Assembly: GCA_026710325.1 (NCBI GenBank)
Contig: JAPORH010000015.1
Coordinates: 1 to 55,567 of the forward strand
Direction of reading: 5' to 3'
Length of the DNA: 55,567 bases
From: Litoreibacter sp.
Lineage (GTDB): Bacteria; Pseudomonadota; Alphaproteobacteria; Rhodobacterales; Rhodobacteraceae
Part shown: positions 5,392 to 53,008 of the stretch, piece after piece
How positions within the stretch are numbered: the stretch's first letter is position 1
Layout: every line of letters starts with the position of its first letter
Notes under the pieces: model-generated
The model's input: the letters and a program-made list of their open reading frames with translations, nothing else
The model's database searches: none
What the model was told of the DNA's origin: nothing
Program-made: the position numbers and the translations under genes

Positions 5392-7050
5392 TCACCCCTC
5401 GTCCCGCCATCTGTTAACAATTGGATACCGCCGGTCCAGCCAGAAGGCGCGGTTGGTCAGCCTTGCGCCGGGGGCGGATTGGAAGCGTTTGTATTCGCTG
5501 ATGTAGATCAGGTGTTCGATCTTTTTGACGACCTCGCGCTCATGTCCGGCGGCGACCACTTCGGCCACGGATTGCTCCCGATCGACCAGGCGGTCGAGGA
5601 TGTCGTCCAGCACCTCATAGGGCGGCAGCGAGTCCTCGTCCTTTTGGTCCGGACGCAGCTCGGCTGAAGGGGGTTTGTCGATGATGCGCTGTGGGATGAC
5701 CTCCCCCGCCGGGCCCGCCATCCAGGGGCGGTGGTGGGCGTTGCGCCAGCGGCAGGTCTCGAACACCCGCATCTTGTAGAGGTCTTTGATCGGGTTATAG
5801 CCGCCCGACATATCGCCATAGATCGTGGCATAGCCGACCGCGACCTCGGATTTATTGCCCGTGGTCAGCAACATTTCGCCGAACTTGTTCGACAACGCCA
5901 TCAGCATCAGCCCGCGTAGGCGCGACTGGATGTTTTCCTCGGTCACGTCTGGTTTGGTGCCTTCCATCAGCGGCGCAAGCGCCTCGGTCACGGCTTCCCG
6001 CGGGCCTGCAATTGGCACCGTATCAATCCGCGCACCGAGCGCGTTGGCGCATTCTGACGCGTCTTCGAGCGAGTGCTCGGATGTGTATTCCGACGGTAGC
6101 ATGACGCAGCGCACGTTCTCTGAGCCAAGCGCGTCGCAGGCGATGGTGGCGACGAGTGCGGAATCGATGCCGCCAGACATACCCAGCAGCACCTTTTTGA
6201 ACCCGGTCTTGCCCATATAGTCGCGCAAGCTTTCGACCATCATGCGGTAGTCGAGCTCCCACTCATCGGGGTGCACGTGTTTTTCGCCCGGGAGTGCGCG
6301 CCAGCCGTCGGTGGTTTCCTCGAAATCGACATGGACGATGGCCTCGTCAAAGGCGGGTAGTTGAAGGGCAAGCTCGCCGCCCGGGTTCAACACGAAGGAG
6401 CATCCGTCAAACACCTGATCATCCTGCCCGCCGACCATGTTGAGATAGACAAGCGGCAGGCCCGTCTCGACCACGCGGGAGACCATGTGGCCTATGCGAA
6501 TATCGTGTTTGTTGCGGAAATAGGGGGAGCCGTTGGGCACGAGCAACATTTGCGCGCCGCTTTCTGCCAGCGTCTCGGATACGTCTTCGTGCCAGGCATC
6601 CTCACAAATCGGGGTGCCGATGCGCATTGGGTCGAGCGCGTAGGGGCCTTGGATCGGACCGCGCTCGTAGACGCGTTTTTCGTCGAATACATTAAAGTTG
6701 GGAAGCTCATGTTTGAGCACGCGGGTTGCAACCTTGCCGCCCTTCAGGATCGAATAGGCGTTATAGAGCTTGTCGCCCTGCATCAGCGGGTGGCCGATGC
6801 CGATGGCGGGGCCATCTGCGCAAGCCTGCGCCAGCTCATCGACCATACGCGTCGCATGTTCTGTGAAGGCGGGCTTCATCGCCAGGTCTTGCACCTGATA
6901 ACCCGTCATGAACATCTCGGGCAGCGCGAGCATTTGCGCGCCAGCCTCCGTCGCCCGGCCCCAGGCGTCGCGCGCTTTTGCAGCATTGCCCGCAAAATCA
7001 CCCACGGTCGGGTTCAACTGCGCAAGAGTGAGGCGAAATTTCTGGGTCAT
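5392..7050 (-). CDS. nadE: Glutamine-dependent NAD+ synthetase
   Basis: This 552-residue two-domain enzyme makes NAD from deamido-NAD, ATP and glutamine. Residues 1 to about 260 form the CN-hydrolase (glutaminase) domain, with its Glu in LALPEMFMTGY and the nucleophilic Cys in GTPICEDAWHE. The C-terminal synthetase domain carries the ATP pyrophosphatase P-loop VLLGMSGGIDSALVATIA and later GNKSEVAVGY and ATIYGDMSGGYNPIKDLYK. The length is normal for the long bacterial form. The start MTQKFRLTLAQLNPTVGD matches the beginning of the hydrolase fold. It is divergent from the MORN-repeat gene, with about 140 nt between them and no obvious operator. Confidence 0.95.
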   Translation of the reverse strand: MTQKFRLTLAQLNPTVGDFAGNAAKARDAWGRATEAGAQMLALPEMFMTGYQVQDLAMKPAFTEHATRMVDELAQACADGPAIGIGHPLMQGDKLYNAYSILKGGKVATRVLKHELPNFNVFDEKRVYERGPIQGPYALDPMRIGTPICEDAWHEDVSETLAESGAQMLLVPNGSPYFRNKHDIRIGHMVSRVVETGLPLVYLNMVGGQDDQVFDGCSFVLNPGGELALQLPAFDEAIVHVDFEETTDGWRALPGEKHVHPDEWELDYRMMVESLRDYMGKTGFKKVLLGMSGGIDSALVATIACDALGSENVRCVMLPSEYTSEHSLEDASECANALGARIDTVPIAGPREAVTEALAPLMEGTKPDVTEENIQSRLRGLMLMALSNKFGEMLLTTGNKSEVAVGYATIYGDMSGGYNPIKDLYKMRVFETCRWRNAHHRPWMAGPAGEVIPQRIIDKPPSAELRPDQKDEDSLPPYEVLDDILDRLVDREQSVAEVVAAGHEREVVKKIEHLIYISEYKRFQSAPGARLTNRAFWLDRRYPIVNRWRDEG

Positions 7051-42469: not shown

Positions 42470-43603
42470 ATGCCAGTTCTCACCACGCACGTTGGATCAC
42501 TGCCACGCACTCAAGAAGTTGTGGATTTCTTGTTCGCCCGAGAGCGTGACGAGGCCTATGATCAAGCGCAGTTTGATGAGACAATGACCAAAGCGGTTGA
42601 CGAGAATGTGCGCCGCCAAGTCGAGGCTGGCGTCGACATTGTCAGCGACGGCGAAGCTTCGAAGATCTCGTACTCAACCTACGTCAAAGATCGATACACA
42701 GGGTTTTCCGGGGACAGCCCGCGTAACGCCCCAGCTGATCTGAAGCTTTTCCCAAGCTACATGGAGCGCCTTTCAAAGAGCGGTGGTACGGCCAACTATT
42801 CTCGCCCGCAATGCACAGGTGAGATCATGTCTATGGGGAATAACGACCTGAATAAGGACATCGCAAACCTCAAGGCTGCCATGAAGAAACATGGCGTTAA
42901 GCGTGGGTTCATGAATGCGGCTTCTCCTGGCGTGGTTGCACTGTTTTTGCCCAACCAACATTACCCGTCTCGCGAGGCGTATCTCGAAGCTTTGGCCGAC
43001 GCTTTGAAAGCCGAATACGAAACGATCGTGGCCGCAGGATTGGAGGTCCAACTGGATTGCCCGGACCTTGCTCTCTCCAGGCAGATGCTCTTCTCGGAGC
43101 TCTCCGATGATGAATTCATCAAGATTGCCGAGGTGAACGTCGAGGTGATGAACCACGCGTTGCGCGATGTCCCACGCGAAAAGGTCCGTGTGCACGCATG
43201 CTGGGGAAACTATGAAGGCCCGCATGTGTTGGATCTTCCTATGGACAAAGTGTTCAGCACGTTGATGTCCATCGACGCCAAATACCTCTCGTTTGAGAAT
43301 GCCAATCCGCGCCATGGTCACGAGTGGAAGGTTTTCCGTGCCCGCAAGGACGAGATACCAGAGGACAAAGTGCTGTTGCCGGGCGTCATTGATACGACTA
43401 CAAACTTCGTCGAGCACCCTGAACTCGTGGCAGATCGGCTCGCACGGTTCACGGACATTGTCGGAGAGGAGCGTGTCATTGCATGCAGTGATTGCGGTTT
43501 CGGAACCTTCGCCGGATATGGCTCAGTGGATCCTGAGATCGCTTATGCGAAGCTCGGCGCGATGGCGGAAGGTGCATCATTGCAGCTTGCTGAGACGGTT
43601 TGA
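42470..43603 (+). CDS. MetE C-terminal-domain-like (cobalamin-independent methionine synthase II family) protein
   Basis: The 377-residue TIM-barrel protein resembles the catalytic C-terminal half of MetE and related stand-alone methyltransferases. It begins VLTTHVGSLPRTQEVVDFLF and contains VDIVSDGEASK, the zinc ligands His and Cys in VRVHACWGNYEGPH, and the last zinc Cys in VIACSDCGFGTFAGYG. There is no N-terminal MetE domain, so the methyl donor may not be methyltetrahydrofolate; the group also includes epoxyalkane-CoM transferase-like enzymes. The next gene (Fe-ADH) lies 157 nt downstream. Confidence 0.88.
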   Translation: MPVLTTHVGSLPRTQEVVDFLFARERDEAYDQAQFDETMTKAVDENVRRQVEAGVDIVSDGEASKISYSTYVKDRYTGFSGDSPRNAPADLKLFPSYMERLSKSGGTANYSRPQCTGEIMSMGNNDLNKDIANLKAAMKKHGVKRGFMNAASPGVVALFLPNQHYPSREAYLEALADALKAEYETIVAAGLEVQLDCPDLALSRQMLFSELSDDEFIKIAEVNVEVMNHALRDVPREKVRVHACWGNYEGPHVLDLPMDKVFSTLMSIDAKYLSFENANPRHGHEWKVFRARKDEIPEDKVLLPGVIDTTTNFVEHPELVADRLARFTDIVGEERVIACSDCGFGTFAGYGSVDPEIAYAKLGAMAEGASLQLAETV

Positions 43604-45036: not shown

Positions 45037-45288
45037 CTAGAAGATGTTAGCGACATCGCTGCGCGCAACTTCCGGCGCAGATTTGTGTATCACTGCCCGA
45101 ATCTCCTGAAAGCCCAAGGTGACGATCCTAATTTCGGTTGCCGGCCCCTCACATCCCGGATCGGTACATACCGTCTCGCACACCGACAACAAACACTGAA
45201 CGCCACCGCCCAACTGCTCGCGCACCAATCGCTTAACCCTTTGCGTGTGCCAAAAGCCTTGGGCCTTGTGCTTTAGCGCCTTCTGCAT
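45037..45288 (-). CDS. Small Cys-rich protein with CTDPGCEGP motif, unknown function
   Basis: The 83-residue protein has four Cys (32, 37, 41, 46), three of them in CETVCTDPGC. The rest (EIRIVTLGFQEIRAVIHKSA, then PEVARSDVANIF) is a short alpha/beta sequence. From memory, roughly 90-residue proteins with C-x-(D/E)PGC-P motifs and an IHKP-like tail lie beside CobW/COG0523 genes in other bacteria; I know no assigned function. Its ATG is 2 nt after the stop of the RibD-like gene, so it is the third gene of the hisI-ribD unit under the Zur-type site. The Cys set suggests metal binding. Confidence 0.7.
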   Translation of the reverse strand: MQKALKHKAQGFWHTQRVKRLVREQLGGGVQCLLSVCETVCTDPGCEGPATEIRIVTLGFQEIRAVIHKSAPEVARSDVANIF

Positions 45289-45290
45289 AG

Positions 45291-46034
45291 CTAGGTGCCA
45301 ACTTCATCGAGAGGGAATACCATCTGCGATTTACTATTGCGCTCGTGGGCCTCCACATAGGACTGGAAATCGCCCCAAAACTCATCGAGTTTAGGGATTG
45401 CCACCGTGGTGAGGCCAAGGTTCCCCATCCATCTGAGCAGATGATGCGGGTTTTTGGGTTCGCTCTCCATGGTTCCGGAACGGGTTGTGAGAACCACCTC
45501 AGTCTCGCCCGATACCAAAACACCGTCTGTCCCGTCGGGGATCGCGTCTCCGCTTTCCAACGAAACAACTAACTCTGGCACGCCAAAATGAACGCGGTGG
45601 AAAAAGCCGGACATCATTGCCTCAGCGTCTGCACCACAAACTCCAACCACAACATCAATTCCAGCCTCCTGGAGCGTAGCAAATCCGCCGCCATTTACGC
45701 GTGGATCGGGATCTTGAACGGCGCAAACCACACGCGAAATGCCTACATCGATGATCGCGTCTGTACACGGTGGCGTTTCACCCCAATGGCAGCACGGTTC
45801 CAGCGTCACAAAGAGTGTGGCTCCGTCTGCTACTTTACCGGCTTGTTCAATCGCCTTGCGCTCTGCATGGGGACGACCGCCGGGATGTGTGGCCGCTTCC
45901 GAGACGACTGCGCCGTGTTTTACAATCAAGCAGCCCACAGGTGGGTTAGGCCAAACGTGACCTCGCACCTCACGCGCCAAGCCCAAAGCGCGTTCCATCC
46001 AAGCTTGATCAGAGTTGGGTTGGGTTTGGGACAT
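45291..46034 (-). CDS. RibD-like pyrimidine deaminase with degenerate C-terminal half
   Basis: The 247-residue protein carries an N-terminal zinc deaminase domain that matches Rib[24 protein letters not shown] at 56-58 and [16 protein letters not shown] with Cys81 and Cys90. RibD acts in riboflavin synthesis. The C-terminal part (residues about 150-247) only faintly echoes the RibD reductase domain and is about half its length, lacking a convincing NADPH site. ATG at 46034 lies inside the end of hisI (26-nt overlap). It is either a deaminase-only paralogue or a protein with another role in the zinc response. Confidence 0.82.
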
Positions 46035-46482
46035 CGCCATAGACTTCCATGGGATCAAAGGTCTTGTCGCTTTCGACAAATTGAAGCGGTTGCCCTGCGT
46101 GTTCAGCTGTTGGCACAGCGCGGTAGAAGCAAGACATGTACCCTACGTGGCACGATGCGCCGGACCCGGCGACCTCTACCTTGAGCCAGACGGCATCTTG
46201 GTCATCATCAATTCGCGCCTCAACGACCTTCTGCACCAAACCAGACGTTGCGCCTTTGTGCCAAAGCACTTGACGTGCACGGCTGAAGTAGTGCGCTTCC
46301 CCAGTTTCAATCGTGAGCTTCAGGGCTTTCTCATTCATCCACCCTAGCATCAGTACATCACCACTTTCCGCGTCAGTGGTAATGCATGGCAACAACCCAT
46401 GCTCATCAAACCTAGGCGCGAAGTCGGTGCTTTCCTCAACCTGTTCGACCGAAGTGCGGAGTTGAAATTCGATTTTGCTCAT
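46009..46482 (-). CDS. hisI: Phosphoribosyl-AMP cyclohydrolase paralogue (HisI-like)
   Basis: The 157-residue protein resembles HisI, the zinc enzyme of the third histidine step: [38 protein letters not shown], then [12 protein letters not shown] and [14 protein letters not shown]. Cys111 and Cys118 (C-x6-C spacing) match the zinc Cys pair; the acidic motif reads DDDQDA where DCDxDA is the form I recall. It is not in a his operon but divergent from a COG0523 gene with a Zur-like site 17 nt before its ATG, so it is best read as a zinc-responsive second copy. AAGGTGAG precedes the start. Confidence 0.87.
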
Positions 46483-46498
46483 GGGCTCACCTTGTGGA

Positions 46499-46515
46499 AT
46501 GTTACTTTATAACAT
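46499..46515. promoter_or_regulatory. Zur-box-like dyad in the hisI/COG0523 divergent promoter
   Basis: ATGTTA (46499-46504), CTTTA, TAACAT (46510-46515) is a perfect 6-bp inverted repeat, and the wider sequence GGAATGTTACTTTATAACAT aligns well with the proteobacterial Zur consensus GAAATGTTATANTATAACAT. TATAAC and, on the other strand, TATAAA inside the dyad are good -10 hexamers, so one bound repressor could shut both arms. It lies 17 nt before the hisI start and 50 nt before the COG0523 start. Confidence 0.78.
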
Positions 46516-46564
46516 AAAGCTACTTGCGCAGGAACGCAGGATTGTAAAGAGGACGAACACTCCC

Positions 46565-47665
46565 ATGGACACAATTGATGAGCGTATCCCGGTAACCTTG
46601 CTGACTGGGTTTCTAGGAGCGGGGAAAACGACGTTATTGAACCACTTGATCAATGATCCAGAAGCAGGCCAGATCGCTGTGATCATGAACGAATTTGGTG
46701 CGGCTGGCCTTGACCATGACTTGATCGAGGCATCGACCGAAGAAACGATCCTGATGCAATCGGGTTGCCTGTGCTGCACGTTCCGGGGCGACATTGCCAA
46801 GACGCTCGGGAAACTCATGGCACGCAAGCAGAGCGGTGAGCTTGCATTTGACCGCATCGTCATTGAGACGACGGGCATCGCGGAACCAGCCCCCATTATT
46901 CATACCTTGGTTGTTGACCAGCTTATGCCGCACTACTACCGCATGGACGGGGTTGTGACCGTTGCCGATGCAGCAACTGGGTCGGGCACACTGAAGTCGC
47001 AGACGGAAGCCGTCAACCAGATCGCCCTTGCAGACTTAATCGTCGTCACCAAAACGGATTTGGTATCCGAAGCCGAACTTGCGTCCTACGAGGCGCAGGT
47101 GAGCACGATCAACGACTCCGCGCAACGCATCCACGCCGACCACGGTAAAGTGCCGATAGGCGCTTTGTTCGGATTGTCGGCTCTACGGGAAGACGCGGCC
47201 ACCGAAGATATCGAAGCATGGGTAGGTAAGTCGGAAAAGCCTCAATCACACAACCACGGAGGCCATGATCACCACCACGGACATGACCACGATAGCCACC
47301 ACGGCAACCAAATTCGATCAGCGTCGATCGCGTTATCCGATCCTATCCCGGCCAGCGTTTTTGATTTCTGGCTCGACATGCTGATTGCAATAAAGGGTCC
47401 CGATCTCTTGCGGATCAAAGGAATTATACATGTTGAGGGGATGGACTGGCCCTTTGTCTTCCACGGTGTCCAACACATCTTTGACGCCCCTGTGCCTTTG
47501 AAGGCCTGGAGCGGACAAGATGCGATAAGCCGGGTCGTTGTGATTGCTCGAAACATGAGCCAGGACGACCTTGACGCCAGCCTGAACATGCTCCGTATGA
47601 AGCCAAAGGAAGTCGAAACAACCACCGACGGCATGGTGCACGAAACCGTCGAGATGCCGTTCTGA
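46565..47665 (+). CDS. COG0523 (CobW/ZigA-type) GTPase, putative zinc metallochaperone
   Basis: The 366-residue G3E-family GTPase has Walker A GFLGAGKTTL (residues 15-24), the CxCC metal motif GCLCC (67-71, Cys68, Cys70, Cys71), the base-recognition TKTD, a His-rich loop (SHNHGGHDHHHGHDHDSHHG, about residues 236-255) and a CobW C-terminal domain (LRIKGIIHVEGMDWPFVFHG). The His loop and Zur-like promoter place it in the zinc-starvation subgroup, thought to hand zinc to client enzymes. ATG at 46565 follows AGAGGA; upstream in-frame codons would cover the operator. It ends 3 nt before cysS. Confidence 0.92.
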   Translation: MDTIDERIPVTLLTGFLGAGKTTLLNHLINDPEAGQIAVIMNEFGAAGLDHDLIEASTEETILMQSGCLCCTFRGDIAKTLGKLMARKQSGELAFDRIVIETTGIAEPAPIIHTLVVDQLMPHYYRMDGVVTVADAATGSGTLKSQTEAVNQIALADLIVVTKTDLVSEAELASYEAQVSTINDSAQRIHADHGKVPIGALFGLSALREDAATEDIEAWVGKSEKPQSHNHGGHDHHHGHDHDSHHGNQIRSASIALSDPIPASVFDFWLDMLIAIKGPDLLRIKGIIHVEGMDWPFVFHGVQHIFDAPVPLKAWSGQDAISRVVVIARNMSQDDLDASLNMLRMKPKEVETTTDGMVHETVEMPF

Positions 47666-47668
47666 TCG

Positions 47669-49009
47669 ATGCTGCATCTCTTCAATTCCATGGGCCGCAA
47701 GGTCGAACCTTTTGTTCCAAGTGATCCGGCTCACGCGCGCATGTATGTTTGCGGCCCGACCGTGTATTCCTACGCCCATATCGGGAACGCACGACCGGCG
47801 GTCGTTTTCGACGTTCTAGCGAGGGTGCTTCGCGCGCAGGTGCCAAAGCTGACTTATGCTCGAAACATCACGGATGTGGATGACAAGATCATCGCCGCAG
47901 CGGCAGCGAGAGCGGTGAGTTGCGACGCAATCTCAGCCGAATTCACCAAAGCCTATCACGAAGACCTTGCCGCACTGGGTGTTGCCCCGCCGGATATTGA
48001 GCCGCATGCGACGGCGCATATTGGGCCGATGATCGAGATGATCGAAGGGCTGATTGCCTCGGGAGAAGCCTACGCAGCAGAAGGCCATGTGCTCTATCAC
48101 ATTCCCGCTTTCCCGGAATACGGCAAACTTTCAGGCGCGAACCCGGATGAGATGCTTGCAGGTGCCCGGGTAGAGGTTGCGCCTTGGAAGCGTGATCCGC
48201 GCGACTTCGTGCTTTGGAAGCCGTCGGGAGCAGATCAGCCCGGCTGGGATAGCCCGTGGGGCTTTGGACGACCCGGCTGGCATATCGAATGTTCTGCCAT
48301 GATCCGCGCGCATCTGGGCGCGCAGATCGACATTCACGGCGGCGGTATCGATCTGCGCTTCCCCCATCATGAAAATGAGATTGCACAAGGCACCAAGGCA
48401 AGGTTCTGGGTCCACAATGGCCACGTGACCGTGTCTGGAGCCAAGATGTCCAAATCGCTGGGCAATGTTCTCTTGGTGCGGGACCTGCTGAAGGAAGCAC
48501 CAGGCGAGGCGATCCGCTACGCACTCTTATCCGCGCACTACCGCCAACCTCTCGATTGGACGCCTGAGACCCCCAAGGCTGCGCGCTCGGCGCTGGACCG
48601 GCTGTACGGCGCGCTGCGTGACCAGCCCGCATCTGAACCCTCATTGGATGACATGGTTCCGGTTTTGGACGCGCTCAACGATGACCTGAACACACCCGCC
48701 GCCTTTGCCGCTCTGCATGCGCTTGCGGCACTAATCCATTCTGAAGCTGACCCAGGCCGACGGGCCGAGATCGCGGCCAGTCTACGTAAGGCAGGCAGTT
48801 TCCTCGGTCTGCTTCAGCAAGACCCAGTTGCGTGGGCCCAGGCAGGGGCTGGAGCGGCCGATCGAATCGAGGCACTCGTTGCCGAACGTGCACGAGCACG
48901 CCTTGATCGCGATTGGTCACGAGCCGACGCATTACGCGATGAACTCTTGGAGATGGGCATAGAAGTTGAAGATTCTGGCGGTGAGAGCCGTTGGCGAAAG
49001 CGCGCATGA
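47669..49009 (+). CDS. cysS: Cysteinyl-tRNA synthetase, probably a second, zinc-locus copy
   Basis: The 446-residue class I synthetase has HIGH-type motif [15 protein letters not shown] (His37), KMSKS in [14 protein letters not shown], and all zinc ligands of E. coli CysRS: Cys28 in [10 protein letters not shown], Cys in WHIECSAM, and His and Glu in [11 protein letters not shown]. The length is normal. Because it keeps the zinc site it is not a zinc-free substitute. A second cysS cannot be checked here, but placement between a COG0523 gene and yidD-zur matches published COG0523 neighbourhoods with duplicate cysS. Its stop overlaps yidD (ATGA). Confidence 0.94.
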
Positions 49010-49251
49010 GAGCACTCTTCGTCTGGCTTTTGATCCTACCAATCCGTTGCTATCGGCTGTTCCTGTCGCCGTGGCTTGGTCATTCTTGCCGCTTCCAGCC
49101 AAGCTGCTCGGTCTATGCCATGGAAGCCCTTGAGACCCACGGTCCTCTTCGCGGGCTATGGCTCACGGCTTATAGACTGGCGCGATGCAATCCTTGGGGC
49201 GGGTCTGGGTTTGATCCCGTGCCGCCTGCAAAAAGCTCGCAAATCAAATGA
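49006..49251 (+). CDS. yidD: YidD membrane-protein insertion efficiency factor
   Basis: The 81-residue protein carries the full YidD signature: [20 protein letters not shown], then [20 protein letters not shown] and [16 protein letters not shown]. YidD assists YidC-dependent insertion and normally lies in the rpmH-rnpA-yidD-yidC cluster. Here it sits between cysS and zur, so it is probably an extra copy. The conserved Cys set (CRFQPSC, ARCNPW) raises the chance of metal binding. It begins in the ATGA shared with cysS and ends 13 nt before zur. Confidence 0.9.
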
Positions 49252-49264
49252 AGTTAGGTGTTCC

Positions 49265-49657
49265 ATGACCAAACGCGGTGAGCAAATACGGGCTGAAATC
49301 CTCATTGTGCTGCGAGAGGCTGATGGTGCTATGTCCGCCTACGACGTGCTGCATCGGTTGCAGGCGTCACATCCAAAAATCGCGCCACCGACAGTTTACA
49401 ATGCGCTTGCAGCTTTGAACAAGTCCGGTCGGGTTCACCGGGTCGAGTCCCTCAAGGCTTACATCGCTTGCCAATGCGATGGCACGCACAAATCGGCTGT
49501 GCTGTCGATCTGTGACGAATTCGGAACTGTCGAAGAACGCACCGCCCCGCGCCTTGTCGAGAACCTCTCTGGTTTCGTTGAAGAAACAGGATTCCTGCCG
49601 CAGCGCCATGTCATTGAGGTGCATGGTCTGTGCTCTTCCTGTAGCTCAACTGCCTAA
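49265..49657 (+). CDS. zur: Fur-family regulator, Zur-like, with an incomplete cysteine set
   Basis: The 130-residue product has an N-terminal winged helix (SAYDVLHRLQASHPKIAPPT, then VYNALAALNKSGRVHRVESL) and a short dimerisation domain. Metal-type residues are Cys69, Cys71, His75, Cys83, His115, His120 and the C-terminal pair Cys123/Cys126. The central motif reads CDEFG; in most Zur/Fur proteins it is CxxCG, so one structural-zinc Cys is replaced by Phe86. ATG at 49265 follows AGTTAGGTG. The operon and the upstream dyad make it the obvious candidate to bind 46499-46515 and repress its own operon. Confidence 0.86.
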   Translation: MTKRGEQIRAEILIVLREADGAMSAYDVLHRLQASHPKIAPPTVYNALAALNKSGRVHRVESLKAYIACQCDGTHKSAVLSICDEFGTVEERTAPRLVENLSGFVEETGFLPQRHVIEVHGLCSSCSSTA

Positions 49658-49676
49658 AATTCGGATCCAACAACAC

Positions 49677-51005
49677 ATGAATAGCTTTGATACGATCTTT
49701 CGACGCGGAACTGTCGTCAACCATCACGGCGTCCAAGAGACAGATGTCGGCGTAGAAAACGGGCGGGTTACCGCTTTGGGTAACTTGTCGGGCGCAGCAT
49801 CGAAAGCCGTGATCGATTGCAAGGGCCTGCACATTCTTCCGGGCGTTGTCGATACCCAGGTCCATTTTCGAGAGCCGGGTTTGACGCACAAAGAAGACCT
49901 TGAAAGCGGATCGCGCGGGGCGGTCTTGGGCGGTGTCACAGGCGTGTTTGAGATGCCCAACACCAACCCGCTGACAACGACCCGCGAGACATTCGAAGAA
50001 AAGATCGCCGCAGCAACGAACCGCATGCATTGCGATTTTGCTTTCTATGTGGGTGGAACTCACTCGAACGTCGCGGAGCTCCCTATCCTCGAAAGACTGC
50101 CGGGTTGTGCGGGAGTAAAGGTCTTCATGGGATCGTCGACAGGGTCACTTTTGGTCCAAGACGATGACGGAGTGGAAGCGATCTTGAACGCGATCTCCCG
50201 CCGTGCTGCGTTTCACAGCGAAGACGAATACATGTTGGAAAAGCGCAAGGACCTTCGCGTCCCAGGCGATCCCTCAAGCCATCCTGTCTGGCGGTCGCCT
50301 GAGGTCGCGCTGAATTGCACAAAGCGTCTTGTCGCATTGGCACACAAGACCGGTAAGCGAATTCACGTGTTGCACATTTCAACTGGGGAAGAGATCGCCT
50401 TTCTTGCGGACCATAAAGACGTCGCCAGCGTCGAAGTCACGCCCCATCACCTAACCCTAGATGATACTGCCTACGCGCGTCTTGGGACCTATGCCCAAAT
50501 GAACCCGCCCGTACGCGACAAGTCACACCAGGATCAGATTTGGGCAGGTGTGGCGAATGGCGTCGCGGATATCCTGGGGTCCGATCACGCACCGCACACC
50601 CGCGAGGAAAAAGAACATGCCTATCCAGACAGTCATTCTGGCATGACGGGTGTTCAGACCCTCGTGCCGACCATGTTGAACCACGTGAATGAAGGCAGGC
50701 TGAGCTTGGAAAGATTTGTCGATATGACAAGTCATGGACCCAACCGCCTGTTTGGGATTGTTGGAAAGGGCCGCATTGCGGTTGGCTACGATGCTGATCT
50801 CACAATTGTGGACATGAAGCGGCGCGAGACCATTACCAATGATTGGATTGCATCCCGCGCGGGGTGGACGCCTTACGATGGCGTGACAGTTACCGGTTGG
50901 CCAGTAGGAACGATTTTGCGGGGCCAGAAGGTGATGTGGGACGGCGAGATTGCGACGCCGAGTATTGGACAACCCATGCGTTTTGCCGAAGCTCTTCCGC
51001 ATTGA
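49677..51005 (+). CDS. pyrC: Dihydroorotase-like amidohydrolase (PyrC/AllB type), probable paralogue
   Basis: The 442-residue cyclic amidohydrolase shows PGVVDTQVHFREPGLTHKED, where the metal HxH reads Q61-V-H63; the carboxylated-Lys position is K148 in AGVKVFMGSSTGS. HSEDEY, HVLHISTGEE and ILGSDHAPHT supply other ligands. The first His of HxH is therefore Gln, which I recall in a subgroup of proteobacterial dihydroorotases. Dihydroorotase forms dihydroorotate in pyrimidine synthesis. Second pyrC copies are known companions of COG0523 genes. The ATG at 49677 is 19 nt after zur, so it closes the operon. Confidence 0.86.
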   Translation: MNSFDTIFRRGTVVNHHGVQETDVGVENGRVTALGNLSGAASKAVIDCKGLHILPGVVDTQVHFREPGLTHKEDLESGSRGAVLGGVTGVFEMPNTNPLTTTRETFEEKIAAATNRMHCDFAFYVGGTHSNVAELPILERLPGCAGVKVFMGSSTGSLLVQDDDGVEAILNAISRRAAFHSEDEYMLEKRKDLRVPGDPSSHPVWRSPEVALNCTKRLVALAHKTGKRIHVLHISTGEEIAFLADHKDVASVEVTPHHLTLDDTAYARLGTYAQMNPPVRDKSHQDQIWAGVANGVADILGSDHAPHTREEKEHAYPDSHSGMTGVQTLVPTMLNHVNEGRLSLERFVDMTSHGPNRLFGIVGKGRIAVGYDADLTIVDMKRRETITNDWIASRAGWTPYDGVTVTGWPVGTILRGQKVMWDGEIATPSIGQPMRFAEALPH

Positions 51006-52594: not shown

Positions 52595-53008
52595 TCAGCT
52601 GCGTGCCATATAGCCCGCATCAAACGCTCCGGGTAAAAGTTCACCAATTGTCGTGGCTTCCTCTTTGCCGTCCGTGGTGCCCATCCAAACAGTGACGTCG
52701 TCCTTGCCAAACTCCTTCAAGCGCTGCCTGCAGGCACCACATGGTGGAACAGGTTCCGGCGAGTCCGCAATGACATACGCTTCAATGACTTCCGTCTCCC
52801 CAGCAACGACCATTGCGGCCAGCGCCGCTTCCTCGGCGCAGGTGCCAACGGGGTAAGACACATTCTCGACGTTCGCGCCGATATAGATCGTGCCTGAAAC
52901 CGCGCGCATGGCTGCGCCAACCTTGAAATTCGAATACGGTGCATAGGCATTTTCGCGAGCAGCAATTGCGGCTTCACGAAGGTCGGGCGCGGAATTGGGC
53001 ATTAGCAT
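52595..53008 (-). CDS. cdd: Cytidine deaminase
   Basis: This 137-residue homotetramer-type enzyme is a zinc hydrolase of pyrimidine salvage. Zinc ligands and base are Cys57, Glu59, Cys90 and Cys93 in VGTCAEEAALAAM and VPPCGACRQRLKEF. The segment YAPYSNFKVGAAM is the substrate block. ATG at 53008 has GGAG 7 nt upstream; a second ATG two codons on is possible. It is convergent with the methyltransferase and divergent from the riboswitch unit. Confidence 0.94.
   Translation of the reverse strand: MLMPNSAPDLREAAIAARENAYAPYSNFKVGAAMRAVSGTIYIGANVENVSYPVGTCAEEAALAAMVVAGETEVIEAYVIADSPEPVPPCGACRQRLKEFGKDDVTVWMGTTDGKEEATTIGELLPGAFDAGYMARS

Follow-up and report, generated by a model that had tools for sequence, protein, structure and literature searches.

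A putative Zur-controlled zinc-starvation locus with apparently mixed zinc-sparing and zinc-keeping spare enzymes in Litoreibacter sp.

The window analyzed here, a stretch of 55,567 nucleotides from Litoreibacter sp. (assembly GCA_026710325.1, contig JAPORH010000015.1), is an entire contig (C43) of a genome of 4.19 Mb, which is available in 240 contigs with a completeness estimate of 99.75%. Between positions 45037 and 51005 it displays two divergent gene arms (Table 1), the left one comprising hisI2, a RibD-like gene and the gene of a small cysteine protein (Cys protein) of 83 amino acids (aa), the right one the genes of a COG0523 GTPase, cysS2, yidD2, zur2 and pyrC2. An earlier note on this DNA, made from the sequence alone, had read the whole block as probable second copies of zinc enzymes together with a chaperone for loading them, with both arms sharing one Zur-like site. 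All genes named there were present as open frames, and in Pfam and NCBIfam searches their proteins matched their own families, with the exception of the Cys protein, which matched no family, and 'RibD', of which only the deaminase domain was recovered. Starts of the COG0523, RibD-like (about 46040), YidD, Zur-like and PyrC genes in Table 1 are revised ones.

Table 1. Features of the divergent locus, with positions in the window.
Feature	Position	Strand	Basis
Cys protein, 83 aa, C-x-D-x2-C-x-G, family without name, terminal gene of the left arm	45037..45288	-	open frame, alignments, AlphaFold2 model
RibD-like, zinc-dependent deaminase domain only, tail of ~90 aa replaces the reductase	45291..46040	-	PF00383, TIGR00326, alignment with own RibD
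hisI2, phosphoribosyl-AMP cyclohydrolase paralogue, Cys-to-Asp at one zinc ligand	46009..46482	-	NF000768, PF01502
Zur-type palindrome TGTTACTTTATAACA, divergent promoter region	46500..46514	.	motif search, published-site matrix
COG0523/G3E GTPase, candidate zinc metallochaperone with a CLCC motif and a stretch rich in His	46565..47665	+	PF02492, PF07683
cysS2, second cysteinyl-tRNA synthetase	47669..49009	+	TIGR00435
yidD2, second YidD, ATGA overlap with cysS2 stop	49006..49251	+	TIGR00278
zur2, Fur/Zur-family regulator paralogue (Zur2)	49265..49657	+	PF01475; nearest solved chain 4mtd
pyrC2, dihydroorotase of PRK09060 type	49677..51005	+	NF006559

Between the arms lies the 15 bp palindrome TGTTACTTTATAACA, 17 bp from the start codon of hisI2 and 50 bp from that of the COG0523 gene. 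It was scored with a matrix built only from five Zur sites published for Paracoccus denitrificans (Table 7 in PMC5387054, where, in the excerpts used here, a motif search was combined with gel shifts for several promoters), and with 15.9 bits it ranks first in the window, the runner-up reaching 9.1 bits and the five source sites themselves 15.8-16.9 bits. A second matrix, trained on this site family including the window site and hence not independent, agrees. The shared Zur-like site of the earlier note was thus recovered as the top match of the window to published Zur sites. An exact match to TGTTAYNNTATAACA occurs only once in the genome, at this very site, and sites with one mismatch number two, one of them located between znuA and zur-znuC-znuB on contig C219, where the gene names follow from PF01297 (164.5 bits) for ZnuA and from best NCBIfam matches to ZnuC, ZnuB and Zur, all below strict cut-offs. 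On the same contig a weaker Zur-like site (12.7 bits, own matrix) was seen 5' of a second COG0523 gene beside znuA (L030, 11166-11180).

A scan of the genome collection with an 8-row alignment of the Cys protein yielded 26 loci of its family, and 20 of them have, in the 1.5 kb 5' of the Cys gene, a site scoring roughly 13 bits or higher in the published-site matrix; no more than 1% of 200 shuffles per locus attained such scores, and the 13-bit line was set after the scores were known, the best miss having 8.2 bits. A chance motif was rejected as an explanation of the palindrome, since its position is conserved across loci.

A lack of second copies elsewhere in the genome had been set beforehand as refutation of a zinc-starvation locus, and this refutation was rejected, because for each of the seven genes asked about another copy or a same-function enzyme was found: a second cysS on C11 (51% identity), a second hisI (HisI1) on C86 (43%), a second ribD on C240 (48% over the deaminase part), which is full length with a RibD_C reductase of 152 bits, further copies of yidD on C185 and C52, a zur copy (Zur1) on C219 (30%) inside the znu operon, and other COG0523 genes, of which C219 has two close to znu and C130 one that is a true CobW (516.5 bits, cut-off 332.1). 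The other copies of pyrC belong to other classes, with a class-II dihydroorotase on C6 (420.9 bits, cut-off 292.95) and a pyrB-linked dihydroorotase homologue without the HxH motif on C207; a match on C54 was rejected as a pyrC copy and represents a dihydropyrimidinase (599 bits, cut-off 393.25). No gene was found of which the Cys protein would be a spare copy, and the earlier view of the whole block as spare zinc enzymes does not extend to it.

The most conspicuous departure from a conventional zinc enzyme is presented by HisI2. Its phosphoribosyl-AMP cyclohydrolase (PRA-CH) domain is clearly recognized (PF01502, 102 bits; NF000768, 150.9 bits against a cut-off of 126). In plant HISN2 the zinc site consists of Cys126, Cys142 and Cys149, and the neighbouring metal site of Asp125, Asp127 and Asp129 (PMC8102479, in excerpt). 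HisI2 fails this three-cysteine site in one residue, with DDDQD in place of DCDRD of the genome's own HisI1 and DCDGD of the solved structure 1zps, and retains the other two cysteines. Eighteen relatives from the 26 Cys-family loci could be aligned, and Asp occupies the ligand position in all 17 which cover it. Of 588 plasmid records in which HisI was matched, 40 were listed, and 15 regions with 16 copies were chosen: the Asp form (8 copies in 8 regions) was accompanied by COG0523 in 8/8, the Cys form (8 copies in 7 regions) in 0/7 of the flanks fetched, which covered 4-5 kb on each side for Cys regions and 4-7 kb for Asp regions. These copies are related and hand-chosen, so that an association and not a tally of independent events is displayed, and the Asp copies are closer to the query (61-76% identity) than the Cys copies (45-58%). 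Judged from its residues, HisI2 seems to be zinc-sparing; its zinc binding is probably altered, loss not being proven, as two cysteines and the Asp positions remain. The exchange of Asp for Cys provides a one-residue marker, by which the HisI of zinc starvation may be distinguished from the remaining HisI of this group. At three loci (L131, L139, L141) a Cys-form hisI was found within or next to genes of mercury resistance (merT, merA; in L141, which has two such hisI, also merB), and these copies may be a reserve for the case that mercury poisons the Cys-zinc site.

Other spare enzymes keep the residues examined. CysS2 matches TIGR00435 over its full length (455.8 bits, cut-off 340) and retains Cys, Cys, His and Glu aligned with zinc-site residues of the solved cysteinyl-tRNA synthetase (CysRS) 1li5, the E. 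coli enzyme. In the RibD-like protein (PF00383, 64.1 bits) HAE and the two Cys of the PCC...PPC stretch are kept; no RibD_C match was obtained in the Pfam search, and the tail fails to align with the reductase of the genome's own full-length RibD. It passes the cut-off of TIGR00326 (167.5 vs 156.35 bits), yet only positions 1-141 of 343 of this bifunctional model were matched, so that the score by itself would misname the protein. Shimia (L061, L062), Phaeobacter and Thioclava also have deaminase-only relatives beside their hisI2, and an unannotated stretch of Paracoccus sp. MA matches them as well. This half-RibD is telling, for of a two-domain enzyme the kit holds just the zinc-dependent half. 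YidD2 (TIGR00278, 78.7 bits, cut-off 40) has three Cys in common with the copy on C185. On pSymB of Sinorhizobium meliloti (L140, 1-4402) thrS, yidD, an iron-sulfur scaffold gene, folE and an unannotated hisI stretch were found together, and yidD therefore adjoins zinc-enzyme genes without a COG0523 gene as well; at L067 only the 3' end of a yidD (6131-6196) is left between COG0523 and thrS (TIGR00418, 683.6 bits), as if the gene had been lost. PyrC2 (NF006559, the PRK09060 equivalog, 777.3 bits, cut-off 482) displays QxH, Gln replacing the first His of the HxH motif, and from this residue is perhaps zinc-sparing. Only 10 of 198 family genomes, the own included, gave a match to it at E ≤ 1e-60, and it is hence not the usual enzyme of this bacterial family.

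The GTPase was assigned to COG0523 by its CobW domain (PF02492, 173.5 bits), its CobW_C domain (PF07683, 64.9 bits) and its CLCC (CxCC) motif; against the ZigA model NF038288 it scored 132.7 bits, below the cut-off of 600. It is probably a zinc metallochaperone. To our knowledge, the clients of bacterial COG0523 zinc GTPases are largely unsettled, and the locus links one GTPase to defined enzymes, a small conserved partner and a HisI with altered metal site, which are hence candidates for direct tests of COG0523 clients.

The Cys protein, as well as its distant relatives, gave none or only chance-level matches in Pfam, NCBIfam and PDB sequence searches, and Foldseek returned 0 matches in PDB at E ≤ 0.001 and 627 at E ≤ 10. 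Among the 26 loci COG0523 is present nearby in 20, hisI2 in 19 (only partial in L070, L082 and L086) and either of them in 24, the two loci with neither being L068, where 550 bp of contig are available 5' of the gene, and L073. In four loci (L072, L080, L081, L082) the genes stand beside znuA-zur-znuC-znuB. The gene order cysS2-yidD2-zur2-pyrC2 of the right arm was found again in L061, L062 and G139, and L063 has it without yidD2. An alignment of 24 rows, from which L082 and L085 were excluded as truncated or odd, revealed W13, R17, R23, C41, C46, G48, T51, I53 and H68 as invariant; in a Phaeobacter copy outside this alignment Tyr replaces the second Cys. The AlphaFold2 model, a small fold predicted with confidence (mean predicted local distance difference test score, pLDDT, 90.7), consists of a helix, three strands and a helix, with the Cys loop (41-48) between strands 1 and 2 and His68 directly after strand 3; to judge by the strand order, loop and His68 would share one edge of an antiparallel sheet.

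When 398 genomes of the phylum were searched with a profile, 15 of them, the own included, had a match at E ≤ 0.01. Around the 17 distant loci of the 14 other genomes (flanks of ~6 kb) COG0523 was encountered in 11, a WD40-type gene in 8, its identity having been checked for two genes, and either of both in 16, L115 having neither. His68 is not kept in many distant copies, so that the wider signature is reduced to the Cys pair. Two plasmid relatives, L132 5941-6228 (H43) and H44, are annotated as 'nitrate reductase', for which no family support was found. One of these two, from Phyllobacterium, has aztABC, a gene of the Fur family and two GTP-binding proteins as neighbours, a Sinorhizobium copy likewise follows aztABC and a GTP-binding protein, and for a Calothrix plasmid copy no COG0523 was seen among the annotated neighbours.

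Zur2 was identified by PF01475 (38.3 bits) and its best solved relative 4mtd, a zinc uptake regulation protein (85.9 bits). Against the NCBIfam Zur model NF008646 it scored 100.9 bits with a cut-off of 167, and since 99.9 bits were obtained for a piece of 122 aa from Zur1 of the znu operon, this cut-off is not telling. Zur2 keeps the CSSC pair and reads ICDEFG, the second Cys of the ICDxC pair being replaced by Phe; both pairs presumably form the structural zinc site of the Zur/Fur family.

Taken together, the region is likely to be an accessory, Zur-controlled zinc-starvation locus, in which zinc-sparing and zinc-keeping spares are mixed. The genes present, their further copies, the conserved site, the changed ligands and the linkage were established by computation, and from them we infer Zur repression, induction, metal use and chaperone action as follows. 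With plentiful zinc a Zur protein would bind the single palindrome and repress both arms; as putative regulator the znu-linked Zur1 is the safer guess and most likely the one acting there, perhaps joined by the local Zur2. As zinc falls, both arms would be derepressed together, the right one supplying the GTPase as probable zinc metallochaperone, the left one HisI2, RibD's deaminase half, which depends on zinc, and the Cys protein, and the spare enzymes would serve the synthesis of histidine, riboflavin, pyrimidines and Cys-tRNA. HisI2, with its catalytic zinc ligand changed from Cys to Asp, and perhaps PyrC2 would spare zinc; CysS2, the RibD deaminase and perhaps YidD2, if it binds zinc at all, would keep it and be priority clients of the GTPase, of which the Cys protein may be a metal-binding partner or adaptor. 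The formula of second-copy zinc enzymes plus loading chaperone is not supported in its full form: it may fit CysS2, the RibD half and YidD2, in which the Cys/His residues examined are kept, and HisI2 without one zinc-ligand Cys and PyrC2 with Gln in HxH depart from it. More tentatively, and with some doubt on our side, the Cys protein might found a new family of small metal-binding COG0523 partners in Alphaproteobacteria plus one cyanobacterial plasmid copy, which accept zinc or dock the GTPase to clients such as HisI2, while in parallel a distinct HisI2 clade with Cys2-Asp site would serve histidine synthesis with a non-zinc metal.

Priority loading in its pure form, which corresponds to the view of the earlier note, would do without any zinc-sparing enzyme: all spares would still be zinc enzymes, to which the GTPase hands scarce zinc, and the extra copies would mean more apo-enzyme able to win zinc. 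CysS2 with its residues aligned to 1li5, the deaminase half with HAE and its Cys, and the three Cys of YidD2 and the C185 copy speak for such an account. A raised protein copy number is also offered as an alternative by Haas et al. (2009; PMC2770081, in excerpt). However, the Asp at a zinc-ligand Cys in every readable HisI2 relative, and the tracking of this change with COG0523 linkage, are at odds with it, and we consider it rather unlikely that priority loading alone explains the locus. The region could also be a decaying accessory island of transferred genes, with Zur2 damaged and expression governed by Zur1 alone or constitutive. The patchy distribution, the Cys-to-Phe exchange in Zur2, which L061, L062, L063 and G139 do not share, and a related cluster on a conjugative Phaeobacter plasmid agree with decay, but each of the eight genes has an open frame, six of them match their families across most of the length, the palindrome is perfect, and the RibD half is short in the four relatives aligned as well and thus no fresh damage, which makes this history quite improbable.

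A response to another metal or stress (iron, cadmium, mercury), with the palindrome as a Fur-like site of a different kind, appears very improbable. Copies of hisI in or beside mercury-resistance genes demonstrate that hisI linkage alone is no proof of zinc; however, these copies retain the Cys, the flanks fetched for them contain no COG0523, the palindrome matches published Zur sites, and in L072, L080, L081 and L082 the genes adjoin znuA-zur-znuC-znuB.

Several observations have to be set against the zinc-starvation locus proposed here. Genome-wide, the motif at two or fewer mismatches is not over-represented (10+14 matches; 31+25 in the reversed-pattern control), so that the case has to be made from the exact site, from where it lies and from its conservation, and six of the 26 loci have no site of ~13 bits 5' of the Cys gene: L068 and L082, which are cut by contig ends, and L069, L070, L071 and L073, which are not. 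The 26 loci are not all independent, L080 and L081 being near-copies. Zur2 is without a cysteine present in its relatives from L061, L062, L063 and G139, and to judge by this residue may work abnormally. QxH of PyrC2 was rejected as a zinc-locus trait, because it belongs to the subfamily and recurs in L051-L053, where no zinc genes were seen alongside. The locus is accessory and patchy, with the Cys gene in 8 of 394 family genomes, the own included, and absent from the sole other genome of the same genus among them. Finally, zinc residues were conserved in the HisI paralogues examined by Haas et al. (2009; PMC2770081, in excerpt), and the Asp form is hence not general.

In the surroundings of the locus a gene with a MetE-type domain (42470-43603) lies beyond the left arm, and in Thioclava (L127, 8263-10623) mesX and a gene for methionine synthase are located on the far side of ribD; this kind of methionine synthase is a zinc enzyme. 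A gene with a cytidine deaminase zinc-binding domain (52595-53008) is found 1.6 kb past the right arm.

Comparison with known systems is confined to the excerpts of the papers covered and to open-licence literature. Among the matches listed in the latter, no title or opening of an abstract links YidD, RibD or PRA-CH with Zur/COG0523, or describes the Asp form of HisI2 or a small protein in COG0523-WD40 surroundings. Closest are the Zur-regulated COG0523 clusters of Haas et al. (2009; PMC2770081), which share with the window a Zur-type site, a COG0523 GTPase and clustered paralogues of HisI, CysRS and PyrC, and differ by their conserved HisI ligands from HisI2, which is without one of them; YidD and RibD are absent from that text by search counts, and no mention of the small Cys protein was seen in the part covered. 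Their COG0523 subfamily 5 has WD40 and znu neighbourhoods, which resemble those of the distant Cys-protein relatives near COG0523 and WD40, with no small protein seen mentioned in the part covered, whereas the window possesses spare enzymes and no WD40 gene. In P. denitrificans (PMC5387054, in excerpt) a COG0523 gene with a Zur-type site is up 13.2-fold under zinc depletion, the Zur regulon has a similar palindrome, with gel shifts for the zur/znuA, aztA and pden1341 promoters, and the induced COG0523 operon pden1338-1344 includes two hypothetical genes; this operon differs from the window in containing a cluster C ABC (ATP-binding cassette) transporter and no spare enzymes. In Pseudomonas protegens pyrC2 and hisI2 are listed as zinc-limitation genes (review PMC6103462, in excerpt), a likeness by gene names. 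The regulatory idea and several members have been known since 2009; HisI2 in its Asp form, the RibD half, YidD and the family of the Cys protein look new in relation to the literature covered.

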